Positions 25,185 through 29,537 of a stretch of DNA of 64,000 nucleotides are shown one piece after another. Positions within the stretch are counted from its first letter, which is position 1. Each line of letters starts with the position of its first letter. Source of the stretch: Acidobacteriota bacterium (lineage in GTDB: Bacteria > Acidobacteriota > Terriglobia > UBA7540); contig JAKCCV010000001.1 in NCBI GenBank assembly GCA_021838785.1, positions 310,001-374,000 of the forward strand. Reading direction: 5' to 3'. Under the pieces are notes generated by a model. The model was not told the DNA's origin and searched no databases. It saw only the letters and a list, made by a program, of their open reading frames with translations. A program made the translations under genes and the position numbers.

Positions 25185-25832
25185 CTAAAAGGACCGTCGC
25201 CATCGCCGCTCCGCAAGCCCCAGCGCCGCGTCGGCCACCAAGGCCAAAAGCGCCGCCGGAATCGCCCCTTCCAAAATCACGCGATTGTCCACCATGGCGA
25301 GGCCACGAAAGATGAATTCGCCCAGGCCGCCCGAGCCAATCGCCGCCGCGATGGTGGCAATGCCAATGGTCATCACCGTGGCCACGCGAAGCCCCGCCAA
25401 AATCACGCTGAGCGCCAGCGGTAGTTCCACCTGAACCAGGATTTGCCGCGCGGTCAGACCCATGCCCCGGGCCGCCTCGCGCACGCTCGGGTCCACGCTC
25501 TCGATACCTGCCGCCGTGTTGCGGATAATCGGCAGCAGCGCATAGGCGGTGAGCGCGGTGATCGCCAGACGGTCCGCGCGCTCACCGAGCCACGGCACCG
25601 GCAGTAAAAATCCGAACAACGCCAGGCTGGGAATGGTTTGGATGACGTTGGCGCTGCCCAGCACGGGCTTATTCCACTTCGGATGCCGCGCCACCAGAAT
25701 TCCGAGCGGAATGCCGGCCGCGCTCGCCAGCAACATGGATACGCCCACCAGCCAGCAGTGCTCCAGCGTCAAAGTCATGATTTCCTGGCGGTGCCGATAG
25801 AAAAATTCCAACAGGCTCATCATCCCTCCCAT
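25185..25832 (-). CDS. OpuC/OpuB-type betaine ABC transporter permease
   Basis: 215 residues with about six transmembrane helices. The permease EAA loop is EAARGMGLTARQILVQVELPLALSVILAG, followed by TVMTIGIATIAAAIGSGGLGEFIFRG, typical of the osmoprotectant/choline/carnitine branch (OpuBB, OpuCB, OpuCD). These take up quaternary amines with a separate or fused binding protein. No binding domain is fused and none is encoded nearby. ATG at 25832; internal ATGs at 25823 and 25820 follow a GGGAGG and could be the true start. Last gene of the MNIO locus, 3 bp after the ATPase. Confidence 0.88.
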   Translation of the reverse strand: MGGMMSLLEFFYRHRQEIMTLTLEHCWLVGVSMLLASAAGIPLGILVARHPKWNKPVLGSANVIQTIPSLALFGFLLPVPWLGERADRLAITALTAYALLPIIRNTAAGIESVDPSVREAARGMGLTARQILVQVELPLALSVILAGLRVATVMTIGIATIAAAIGSGGLGEFIFRGLAMVDNRVILEGAIPAALLALVADAALGLAERRWRRSF

Positions 25833-25835
25833 ACG

Positions 25836-26606
25836 TTACGCAGCGCTCTCGGGCGTCTCTCCCGGGCCGAGCGTGGCCACATATTCGGCCGCCAGCGGCT
25901 CTCGCGCTTTGAGAAAAGTCAGCGGCGAATAGACGCCCACTAGCTTGCCCGCTTCCATCAAGGCAATACGGTTGGCCAGCCGCAGCGCCTCCCGAATGTC
26001 GTGCGTCACCAAAACCACGGTTTTCTTCAACCGGCTTTGTAATGCCAAAAACTCCCGCTGAATCTCCGCCCGGCTCAGCGGGTCGAGCGCGCCAAACGGC
26101 TCATCCATCAGCAGGATGGGCGGATCGGCGGCGAGCGCCCGCGCCACGCCGACGCGCTGCCGTTGGCCTCCGGAGAGTTCGCGCGGATGGCGATCTCGAA
26201 ATTTCGCGGGCTCGAGTCCCACCAGGTGTAGCAGCTCCTCCACGCGCGCTCGAACGCGCTCCGGCGGCCAACCCTCCAAACGCGGAATCAACGCCACGTT
26301 GCGCTCCACCGTGTAATGGGGAAACAAGCCTGCCTCCTGAATCACATAACCGATATGCCGCCGTAATCGTATGGGGTCCCAGTTGCCCACCGAGCGGCCT
26401 TCCACGCGAACGTCGCCGCTCGTCAGGTCGAGCAGCCGGTTGATGAGCTTGAGTGTGGTGGTTTTGCCGGAGCCGCTGCGCCCCACGAGTGCCAGCACTT
26501 CTCCGGGCGCAACCGCCAGCTCGAGCCCGGAGAGAATGATATGGCCGTCCACGGCGTAGCGCGCTTGAAGGAATTCAATCGCCGGTTGGAAGGTTTCGCC
26601 TGTCAT
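25836..26606 (-). CDS. OpuC/ProV-type betaine ABC transporter ATP-binding protein
   Basis: 256 residues. Walker A GRSGSGKTT, Q-loop YVIQEAGLFPHYTVERNVAL (the ProV/OpuCA-typical wording), signature LSGGQRQRVGVARAL, Walker B ILLMDEPFGALD, H-loop VTHDIREAL. There are no C-terminal CBS domains, unlike classical OpuCA. The start ATG at 26606 overlaps the methyltransferase stop by 4 bp (ATGA), so translation is coupled. Energises the permease encoded next. Substrate inferred to be a betaine-like or other methylated amine compound because of the coupled EgtD-type methyltransferase. Confidence 0.9.
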   Translation of the reverse strand: MTGETFQPAIEFLQARYAVDGHIILSGLELAVAPGEVLALVGRSGSGKTTTLKLINRLLDLTSGDVRVEGRSVGNWDPIRLRRHIGYVIQEAGLFPHYTVERNVALIPRLEGWPPERVRARVEELLHLVGLEPAKFRDRHPRELSGGQRQRVGVARALAADPPILLMDEPFGALDPLSRAEIQREFLALQSRLKKTVVLVTHDIREALRLANRIALMEAGKLVGVYSPLTFLKAREPLAAEYVATLGPGETPESAA

Positions 26607-27559
26607 GCGCCGTTCTGCCGGCGGGCCAAGGTCATCACAAACTGCCCGTCGTCGCTCACCCATTCCAGGGCGACGCTCAGGCCACCGGTTTCACGAATCA
26701 ACCCATCAAGGGCCGGGCGCGCATACTTCCACGAGGGACTCATGCGAATCTTCTGGCCTTCTTTCAACTGAAACCACTTTCCGGCCACCGGCAAGCTCAG
26801 CGGCCGCGCGGCTTGAAAATATTTCTGAACCCAATAGAGACCCTCCAACTGCGGCACCGCGGCGAGCGTAAAAACCAATTCCCCGTCTTCCCCTTCTTTC
26901 AACCCCAGGCTCGCGAGCGGCGCAAAGGCGAACCGGCGATTGGCCGGGTGGTCGTAACCGAGTAGCGTGGTGTCCGGATTAAAAATTTCGCCGTCCAGCA
27001 AAACCCAATCCGCCGGGCGGAGAAGCGCCCGAAGCAAACGGAGAAAATTCGACGGGTCCATGATGCCCAGCGAGTTGCCCAAAACCAGATAAAGCCGTGG
27101 GCGCGCGGCGGTCTTCGACAGCCAATGCGCCGTCCGCGCGTCCTCGATGTCAGCTTTCAGGCCGCGCCCAGCGCAGCCGTGCTCGACGGCCCGCCCCACC
27201 GCCATTTCAAGCAGGGCCATGCTCGAATCCACGGGGCGATAAAAGACGGTCTTGCCGCTCGAACGAAGCGCCTCCAGCGATAAGACATCCTTGTCACCTT
27301 GTCCCGCGCCCAATCCCACCACTTCGATGTCGCGGGCCGAGCACGCCGCGGCAATTTCCGAAGCATGACGGGTCAGCAGTTCGAGCGAGCGCGAATAGTT
27401 CTTGTACGGCTGCGAGCTGTTGCAGAGGTCCAGCCACGCCCGAACCGACAACGGAAACCAATAGAAAAACTTCTCGGCAAGAAAGCCGCGCTCCAGGCCG
27501 CTCAAAAGTTCTGCCGCCAACTGATTTTCCGTCACCAGCGTTTCAAACTCGATGGTCAT
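26603..27559 (-). CDS. EgtD-like SAM-dependent methyltransferase (Methyltransf_33)
   Basis: 318 residues, close to the 320 of EgtD, which trimethylates histidine to hercynine. The SAM glycine loop is VVGLGAGQGDKDVLSL (80-95), followed by YRPVDSSMALLEMAVG (107-122, the family's P-D-S-x-x-L motif) and YLVLGNSLGIMDPSNFLRLL (the G-N strand). The N-terminus, KFFYWFPLSVRAWLDLC (30-46), differs from the EgtD KYFYD-GS motif, and the histidine-binding residues cannot be assigned by eye, so the substrate may not be histidine. I use the ATG at 27559 after GAGGG. It lies 40 bp after the partner gene and is coupled to the betaine-transporter ATPase. No EgtB is nearby, so this is not an ordinary ergothioneine operon. 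Confidence 0.75.
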   Translation of the reverse strand: MTIEFETLVTENQLAAELLSGLERGFLAEKFFYWFPLSVRAWLDLCNSSQPYKNYSRSLELLTRHASEIAAACSARDIEVVGLGAGQGDKDVLSLEALRSSGKTVFYRPVDSSMALLEMAVGRAVEHGCAGRGLKADIEDARTAHWLSKTAARPRLYLVLGNSLGIMDPSNFLRLLRALLRPADWVLLDGEIFNPDTTLLGYDHPANRRFAFAPLASLGLKEGEDGELVFTLAAVPQLEGLYWVQKYFQAARPLSLPVAGKWFQLKEGQKIRMSPSWKYARPALDGLIRETGGLSVALEWVSDDGQFVMTLARRQNGA

Positions 27560-27599
27560 CAGGCCCTCGTCGCCCAACGTATCCCGCCGGCGCGGCCAT

Positions 27600-29365: not shown

Positions 29366-29443
29366 TCAGGTCGGAACGAGGCTTTCGCGTTCGACCAGTG
29401 CCTCCTCGGGAAGCAGGTCAATCATCTTCTTGTCGTCTTCCAT
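29366..29443 (-). CDS. 25-residue peptide, candidate precursor of the MNIO pathway
   Basis: A short frame beginning MEDDKKMIDL and ending RESLVPT, then TGA. A strong Shine-Dalgarno GAGGAGG (29451-29457) sits 7 bp before the ATG, a promoter lies 43 bp upstream of that ATG and a terminator 42 bp downstream of the stop. It is acidic, Leu/Glu-rich and has no Cys, His or aromatic residue. If it is the substrate, the MNIO enzyme would act on a non-cysteine position (for example Asp, Glu, Ser, Thr or the C-terminus), or the peptide is a carrier. Too short for homology; evidence is position, ribosome site and flanking signals. It could instead be a regulatory leader peptide. Confidence 0.6.
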   Translation of the reverse strand: MEDDKKMIDLLPEEALVERESLVPT

Positions 29444-29485
29444 CCAGTTAGCCTCCTCAGATTGGTCTAGCTTCTTTCACTTGGC

Positions 29486-29514
29486 CTTATACACCCGCGG
29501 TGCCGGCATTTCAA
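29486..29514 (-). promoter_or_regulatory. promoter of the MNIO locus
   Basis: Minus-strand -35 TTGAAA (29509-29514), 17-bp spacer, -10 TATAAG (29486-29491). Predicted start near 29479, giving a leader of about 36 bases with the strong ribosome site of the short peptide gene. Confidence 0.65.
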
Positions 29515-29519
29515 GCGCA

Positions 29520-29537
29520 ATGTGACGTTCGTCACAT
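29520..29537. promoter_or_regulatory. 18-bp perfect palindrome, CRP/FNR-like operator
   Basis: ATGTGACGTTCGTCACAT is a perfect inverted repeat and fits the CRP-family consensus TGTGA-N6-TCACA exactly. Its centre is about 49 bp upstream of the predicted start of the MNIO transcript and 14 bp from the -35. The regulator is not in the window; the spacing is not the classical -41.5 or -61.5, so activation versus repression is open. Confidence 0.6.

Follow-up and report, generated by a model that had tools for sequence, protein, structure and literature searches.

The 64,000-nucleotide window of Acidobacteriota contig JAKCCV010000001.1 analyzed here, from a soil bacterium, carries on its minus strand a block of genes that is near certain to open with a selenopeptide gene, the predicted product containing a selenocysteine (Sec) encoded by UGA and ending in ...LVPT-Sec-His. 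The peptide is followed by an MNIO (DUF692) enzyme, a TglI-like partner, a methyltransferase with the fold of EgtD, and the ATPase and permease of an ATP-binding cassette (ABC) transporter. We read the block as a pathway for a ribosomally synthesized and post-translationally modified peptide (RiPP) in which the MNIO enzyme works on the encoded Sec, and which probably yields a seleno- or thio-histidine-type betaine instead of the products of EgtB; taken as a whole, this reading is in our judgment evenly poised between right and wrong. A preliminary description of this DNA had named a minus-strand block of the DUF692 gene, its partner, the Methyltransf_33 gene, the ATPase, and the permease, with 4-bp overlaps between the MNIO and partner genes and between the Methyltransf_33 and ATPase genes, and all of these are present. 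The features are as follows (AF2, AlphaFold2; bSECIS, bacterial Sec insertion sequence).

29360..29443, minus strand: selenopeptide precursor gene, 27 codons including Sec (MEDDKKMIDLLPEEALVERESLVPTUH), stop TAA at 29360-29362; Sec codon TGA at 29366-29368, next codon CAC (His)
29331..29356, minus strand: bSECIS-type hairpin, 5-nt loop CGUGA, beginning 19 nt past the UGA
about 29270..29322, minus strand: second hairpin, terminator- or attenuator-like, between the precursor and MNIO genes, with a T-rich tail (from RNA fold and sequence)
28433..29239, minus strand: MNIO (DUF692) enzyme, 268 residues (PF05114, E 7.7e-26, 91.3 bits; gathering cut-off 25)
27600..28436, minus strand: MNIO partner, TglI-like, with a C-terminal winged-helix-like part (AF2 model and Foldseek)
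26603..27559, minus strand: Methyltransf_33 protein, EgtD fold (PF10017, E 2.2e-20; AF2 and fold search)
25836..26606, minus strand: ProV/OpuCA-type ABC ATPase (TIGR01186, 255.6 bits, under the cut-off of 326.6)
25185..25832, minus strand: ProW/OpuCB-type ABC permease (PF00528, E 4.2e-25)

Evidence for selenocysteine in the precursor peptide

To place the peptide among its relatives, orthologues of the MNIO enzyme were sought in 61 relatives, in samples of 396 phylum, 39 family, and 399 class genomes, in 398 genomes from the family to which G673 belongs, and in GTDB species contigs. At most six first-look candidates per genome were scored in the phylum and class samples, so that the counts are lower bounds. 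The GTDB species contigs gave six loci, the same as those of G002, G003, G009, G018, G188, and G205, and the closest MNIO on a named record lies on JAKASC010000149.1, a contig of an Acidobacteria metagenome-assembled genome, with 96% identity. The 19 loci form two groups: a Sec type of nine (G000, which is the window genome, G002, G003, G009, G011, G018, G188, G205, and G412; families f1, f27, f68, and f73) and a Cys type of ten (G673, G700, G716, G750, G757, G785, G819, G843, G855, and G865; family f10), whose MNIO identity is about 49-58%.

The precursor open reading frame (ORF) starts at 29443 with a strong Shine-Dalgarno sequence and is very short, and ordinary annotation halts at its UGA. 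It had been described earlier as a 25-codon peptide; it actually has 27 codons, the TGA being best read as Sec and followed by the His codon CAC and TAA. The C-terminal sequence VE-x-x-x-LVPT followed by TGA, CAC, and a stop codon is found in 9/9 Sec-type loci from four Acidobacteriota families. The codon after CAC differs among them (TAA in six, TAG in two, TGA in one) and is always a stop, indicating that the reading frame runs on beyond the TGA, and the codons before the TGA show synonymous variation at conserved residues (GTC/GTG/GTT for Val, GAA/GAG for Glu). In the ten distant Cys-type loci, the MNIO gene is preceded by an ORF whose product, a three-repeat precursor, is 45-46 residues long; its final repeat reads VExxE(V/T/L)APTCH-stop in all ten, and the earlier repeats include two PACH and one PTSH. 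Since these precursors carry Cys at the same place, the TGA position corresponds to the Cys position of the relatives, and an in-frame UGA aligned with a homologous Cys, one mark of a selenoprotein, is found when the nine Sec-type and ten Cys-type loci are compared. The agreement in peptide C terminus, TGA-CAC-stop, and hairpin across nine loci and four families is more than chance.

If the TGA were instead an ordinary stop, the substrate would be a 25-residue peptide ending in LVPT and the CAC-stop would be coincidental. TGA does end the MNIO, partner, and methyltransferase genes of the window; the CAC with its varying stop in every Sec-type locus, the Cys of all ten distant relatives, the conserved hairpin, tRNA-Sec, and SelB all speak against this explanation, which we regard as very improbable. 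An altered genetic code, in which TGA would mean Trp or Gly, can be set aside: TGA terminates the adjacent genes, and tRNA-Sec is present. The peptides belong to no Pfam or NCBIfam family, with sub-threshold matches only, and the window peptide gave no match at E<=10 against NCBIfam, including the selenobacteriocin model TIGR04081, a weak test for queries this short. By eye, a GGTCG upstream could pair with the CGACC directly before the TGA (window 29366-29443, G002, G003, G009, and G011), so that the Sec codon may have a further hairpin on its 5' side.

Hairpins and selenocysteine decoding machinery

The bSECIS model as given in PMC13188914 sets a loop of 3-9 nt, a G in the first two loop positions, a distance of 16-37 nt from the UGA, and an energy of at most -7.5. 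All nine Sec-type loci have a hairpin within these limits, with the loop beginning 18-25 nt past the UGA, an energy of -9.8 to -14.5 kcal/mol, and the G in the first two loop positions that the script requires. The same test is passed by 10/77 other TGA ends and, via hairpins 27-36 nt downstream, by 5/10 Cys-type ends, so on its own it has low specificity, and it is the conserved place and sequence of the hairpin on which the argument rests. The pairs of its 6-bp core are kept in 54/54 cells. No double compensatory change occurs in the core among the nine loci, and covariation cannot prove the element because the core is nearly invariant. Nothing in the window reached the gathering score of an Rfam family, and two weak, chance-level matches lie near the peptide.

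The window genome has a tRNA-Sec with UCA anticodon (ARAGORN: tRNA-SeC, anticodon tca) and a SelB scoring 352 bits against a cut-off of 242. Among the Sec-type genomes tRNA-Sec is found in 8/9 and SelB above its cut-off in 5/9; every one has tRNA-Sec, SelB, or both, and the gaps fall in genomes that are 57-88% complete. The figures for Cys-type genomes are 8/10 and 10/10, and all five control genomes that lack the MNIO carry both components. Because Sec machinery is common in Cys-type genomes, the Cys type is not explained by a loss of Sec decoding.

The terminator of the preliminary description was not found by a simple scan; the second hairpin, separate from the bSECIS-like one, is visible in the RNA fold at about 29270-29322, followed by a T-rich stretch. 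By eye, a comparable hairpin with a T run behind it can be made out in G188 and G205. The promoter claimed in the same description was not recovered by a sigma-70 scan. The hairpins between the peptide and the MNIO gene, and a Sec close to the end of a short ORF, would fit a selenium-sensing leader, in which selenium supply, by way of UGA readthrough, would govern the terminator-like hairpin and with it the downstream enzymes, these using another substrate. We consider such a leader improbable, as the Cys-type relatives carry the motif three times in a longer peptide, VE...PT(U/C)H is conserved as amino acids, and MNIO enzymes act on peptides, with no other short peptide standing out nearby.

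A conserved unit of peptide, MNIO, partner, and methyltransferase

A comparison of genome neighborhoods bears out the proposal that the short peptide, the MNIO enzyme, the partner, and the EgtD-fold methyltransferase form a conserved unit (19/19, 19/19, 18/19, and 18/19 loci, respectively); loci without peptide and partner, which had been named as counting against it, did not turn up. In every locus the peptide is encoded upstream of the MNIO enzyme. The TglI-like partner is adjacent except in G750, where the contig stops inside the MNIO gene, and the Methyltransf_33 gene is adjacent except on the short G188 contig, whose first bases fall within the ATPase gene; if G188 is arranged like G205, its methyltransferase would lie past the contig edge. 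In the Sec type the methyltransferase follows the partner, with the exception of G205, where methyltransferase, ATPase, permease, and binding protein all stand ahead of the peptide, as does the visible part of G188. In the Cys type it is on the opposite strand and divergent from the precursor gene, at a distance that is mostly no more than a few hundred bases (about 1.7 kb in G750). Gene order thus varies while the unit stays together, indicating that the unit survives rearrangement. A precursor, a partner or recognition protein, and a modifying enzyme, which together define a RiPP cluster, are all present.

The MNIO tree of 29 sequences (nine Sec-type, nine Cys-type, and 11 others; G843 was left out for its broken gene and L016 because no match was recovered) separates the Sec and Cys groups together from other acidobacterial MNIOs with 100/100 support. 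A branch with 95/86 support sets the Sec group apart, and the support for the Cys group is just 52/70; the tree program warned of long branches among the other acidobacterial MNIOs. These others (L007-L018, 12 loci, 23-31% identity), 11 of which could be placed in the tree and all of those outside the Sec and Cys groups, have no Methyltransf_33 match within flanks of at most about 1.5 kb. Plasmids hold remote MNIOs only (341 records, all below 60% identity; 28% among the matches listed). At about 8374-8978 of the G843 locus (L080), the MNIO match is broken into two segments that lie in different frames, and about 50 residues are absent; the precursor, partner, and methyltransferase of this locus match well, which leaves either a broken MNIO gene or an assembly fault.

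A superoxide dismutase-like gene was seen by eye after the partner gene in all five g319 genomes:

L044 10659-11285, same strand as partner: superoxide dismutase-like gene
L045 10586-11209, same strand as partner: superoxide dismutase-like gene
L075 7147-7779, same strand as partner: superoxide dismutase-like gene
L076 7069-7683, same strand as partner: superoxide dismutase-like gene
L080 6881-7504, same strand as partner: superoxide dismutase-like gene

Such a neighbor would suit an antioxidant role, but may reflect mere synteny.

The MNIO enzyme, its partner, and the methyltransferase

The closest solved relative of the MNIO enzyme is TglH (2.5e-18). Residues His55, His88, Glu135, Asp168, and His199, candidate metal ligands, are invariant in nine rows and align with those of TglH/3bww. 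The metal site may nevertheless differ from that of 3bww, because the DVNN motif of 3bww is replaced by D-x-(A/S/P)-H in this group and its AGH motif by AGV (AGM in one row). The top NCBIfam matches are ApyH/ApyI (84.4 bits) and BufB (82.9 bits), and the enzyme falls below the curated cut-offs of the ApyH/ApyI, BufB, and HvfB equivalogs (400 and 310 bits for the first two). The AF2 model of the partner (pLDDT 86.3) finds the TglHI entries 8hi7_A (5.6e-7) and 8hci_A (9.8e-6) as its best Foldseek matches, followed by NGO1945, the chain of the TglHI entries being assigned to TglI by its length.

The methyltransferase model (pLDDT 93.7) has EgtD in all of its top 15 fold matches (4pio_B, E 1.7e-20, TM 0.82), and the protein fails the EgtD equivalog TIGR03438 (43.1 bits against 290.9). 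In EgtD the carboxylate of histidine is held by Tyr56, Tyr206, and Ser284, and the α-amine by Asn166; Glu282 is a further residue of the histidine site (PMC8593015). In a profile alignment the positions of Tyr56, Tyr206, and Ser284 are invariant in 15 rows, while Asn166 is replaced by Ile, Val, or Ala and Glu282 by Ser or Asn. The retained carboxylate residues together with these replacements suggest a substrate that has a free carboxylate and is other than plain histidine. An EgtD-like use of plain histidine is unsupported, given the missed TIGR03438 cut-off and the two replaced residues.

The transporter

The ABC ATPase is adjacent in 7/9 Sec-type loci; the G003 contig ends earlier, and G412 has none in its remaining 495 nt. 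Four Sec-type loci other than the window have an OpuAC-type binding protein along with ATPase and permease, and these in-cluster proteins are 53-71% identical among themselves. The window genome encodes an OpuCC/EgtU-type binding protein on contig C24 at 159099-159938 (L025, L030); it shares 64% identity with the in-cluster protein of G011, and the 9 kb covered there contain no match to the cluster ATPase or permease. It is probably the separated partner of the importer in the window. Solved relatives of the binding protein include OpuBC/OpuCC, ProX, and the ergothioneine protein EgtUC, names that point to binding of choline, carnitine, betaine, and ergothioneine. A transporter with a binding protein is an importer. 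A putative betaine-type transporter, as proposed in the preliminary description, is present in the Sec type, as an importer where the binding protein occurs. The ten Cys-type loci gave no match to an OpuC-type permease or binding protein at E<=1e-3 (L079 and L081 are short contigs), making the transporter an optional addition. The ABC ATPase present in two of these loci (L077, L079) looks different and shares 42% identity.

Apparent absence of EgtB in carriers

EgtB homologues were defined as TIGR03440 matches at E<=1e-50, the curated cut-off of the model being 360 bits. None of the 19 carriers has one, the best match (87.5 bits) covering part of the model only; they are found in 3/5 non-carrier controls. 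The class sample is assumed to comprise the 399 genomes of the MNIO search; in it, an EgtB homologue is present in 236/399 genomes and in 0/9 carriers (hypergeometric 2.8e-4). The corresponding values are 22/39 and 0/6 in the family (0.0038), and 187/317 and 0/5 among genomes with a completeness of 90% or more and no more than 5% contamination (0.011). Matches under 360 bits, in 132/236 genomes, may be other EgtB-like enzymes. The class-sample scores fall into two bands, with a gap from 505 to 357 bits and 104/236 genomes above 360, which may mean that Acidobacteriota have more than one EgtB-like family.

Proposed pathway

In the pathway we propose, SelB and the bSECIS hairpin would make the ribosome read UGA as Sec, for which the sequence evidence is strong, to give a 27-residue precursor in which Sec adjoins the C-terminal His; the second hairpin would probably hold the level of the peptide above that of the enzymes. 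The MNIO enzyme and its TglI-like partner would then bind at the conserved motif VE...PT(U/C)H and oxidize the Sec/Cys-His unit, a step that is well supported by the conservation of the unit and the habit of the MNIO family. The modified residue would be set free, most likely as a histidine with Se or S attached, and the EgtD-fold enzyme would methylate its α-amine to give a betaine, which in the Sec type only may be taken (back) up by the OpuC/EgtU-type ABC importer. We infer the seleno- or thio-histidine betaine from the adjoining Cys/Sec and His, the EgtD-fold methyltransferase with its carboxylate site, the betaine-type importer, and the absence of EgtB. This product would fill the role of EgtB-made ergothioneine or selenoneine, the known route being apparently unavailable to these genomes. 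The earlier idea of a methylated product built on a short template is in keeping with the conserved unit; it had missed that the peptide is a selenopeptide with Cys homologues.

Several observations weigh against this pathway, in addition to the low specificity of the bSECIS test, the invariant hairpin core, and the replaced Asn166 and Glu282. A synthetic Sec analogue of TglA inhibits TglHI (PMC9016710). No shared lyase or peptidase was noticed among ORF clusters present in at least four of the 19 loci (best 25, by eye), which counts here because release of a small molecule needs one. The importer components missing from the Cys type belong here as well. The EgtB tests ignore kinship and are confounded also by incomplete genomes, and G001, of the same genus, is without both the MNIO system and EgtB.

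The same precursor could instead undergo familiar MNIO chemistry on Cys, either carbon excision of the TglHI type or formation of a thio- or seleno-oxazole, with the methyltransferase capping the N terminus of a freed small peptide that binds metals or acts as a signal. The closest solved relatives, TglH and TglI, fit this account, as do the three Cys-His units of the Cys type in the case of a metal-binding peptide. Known MNIO reactions on Cys are formation of an oxazolone-thioamide, carbon excision, macrocyclization, and thiooxazole formation (PMC13174530), and a radical SAM enzyme installs a seleno(thio)oxazole in a Sec-containing peptide (PMC11002830). However, neither an exporter nor a peptidase was noticed among the shared neighbors, the precursors have no signal peptide evident by eye, and the EgtD fold with its kept carboxylate site, the betaine-type importer, and the absence of EgtB would be left unexplained. 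We regard this account as possible, if on balance somewhat improbable.

A narrower form of the betaine pathway is a ribosome-templated route to selenoneine, or ergothioneine in the Cys type, in which the MNIO enzyme would shift Se or S from Sec/Cys to the adjacent His, the residue would be excised and trimethylated by the divergent EgtD, and EgtB would be replaced in scattered Acidobacteriota. This form we consider less likely than not; if true, translation would be the selenium-insertion step of a small-molecule synthesis.

Comparison with known systems

In the open-license PMC literature, which leaves subscription selenoprotein surveys uncovered, neither a natural Sec-containing MNIO precursor nor an MNIO route to ergothioneine was found. 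Known MNIO reactions act on Cys, Phe, Asn, and Asp, to which PMC13174530 adds homocitrulline. The available part of the MNIO substrate landscape (PMC12452194) makes no mention of selenium, Acidobacteria, EgtD, or methyltransferases, and in that of PMC10214503 selenium appears as a selenomethionine label only. Table 1 of PMC13188914, as far as available, lists 119 selenoprotein families with a single RiPP, selenobacteriocin, and no link to MNIO by name. As far as searched, the system would thus be the first MNIO pathway with genetically encoded Sec as its natural substrate, and because Sec and Cys versions both occur in nature, Se can be compared with S directly in tests of the chemistry within one enzyme family.

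The ApyH/ApyI enzyme of aminopyruvatide and BufB of bufferin are the top NCBIfam matches of the MNIO enzyme, yet lie far under their cut-offs. The 3-thiaglutamate (pearlin) system TglA/TglHI likewise has an MNIO enzyme and a TglI-type partner acting near the C terminus of a short peptide, and there too an amino acid is made on a peptide scaffold and then freed (PMC9016710). In contrast to TglA, the Cys or Sec is here encoded, penultimate, and followed by His, is repeated in the Cys type, and is accompanied by an EgtD-fold methyltransferase. The Cys-adding enzyme of the Tgl pathway is PEARL, and no Cys-adding enzyme was noticed among the shared neighbors here. The nearest precedent for a Sec RiPP is the selenobacteriocin/SbtM system (TIGR04081), a RiPP precursor with an in-frame TGA and a Sec insertion element whose maturase takes Cys or Sec (PMC13188914, PMC11002830); it differs in having a radical SAM maturase and an SGUG motif in place of the MNIO enzyme and PTUH.

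Ergothioneine is made by EgtBD and selenoneine by SenABC. The present system resembles these in its EgtD-fold methyltransferase and in the betaine-type transporter (EgtU family) as a partner, and differs in that the carriers are without an EgtB homologue and the Se or S would come from a translated Cys or Sec residue. If the product is a histidine betaine, the pathway would represent a second, ribosomal origin of ergothioneine/selenoneine-type antioxidants, which would explain how the carriers live without EgtB.

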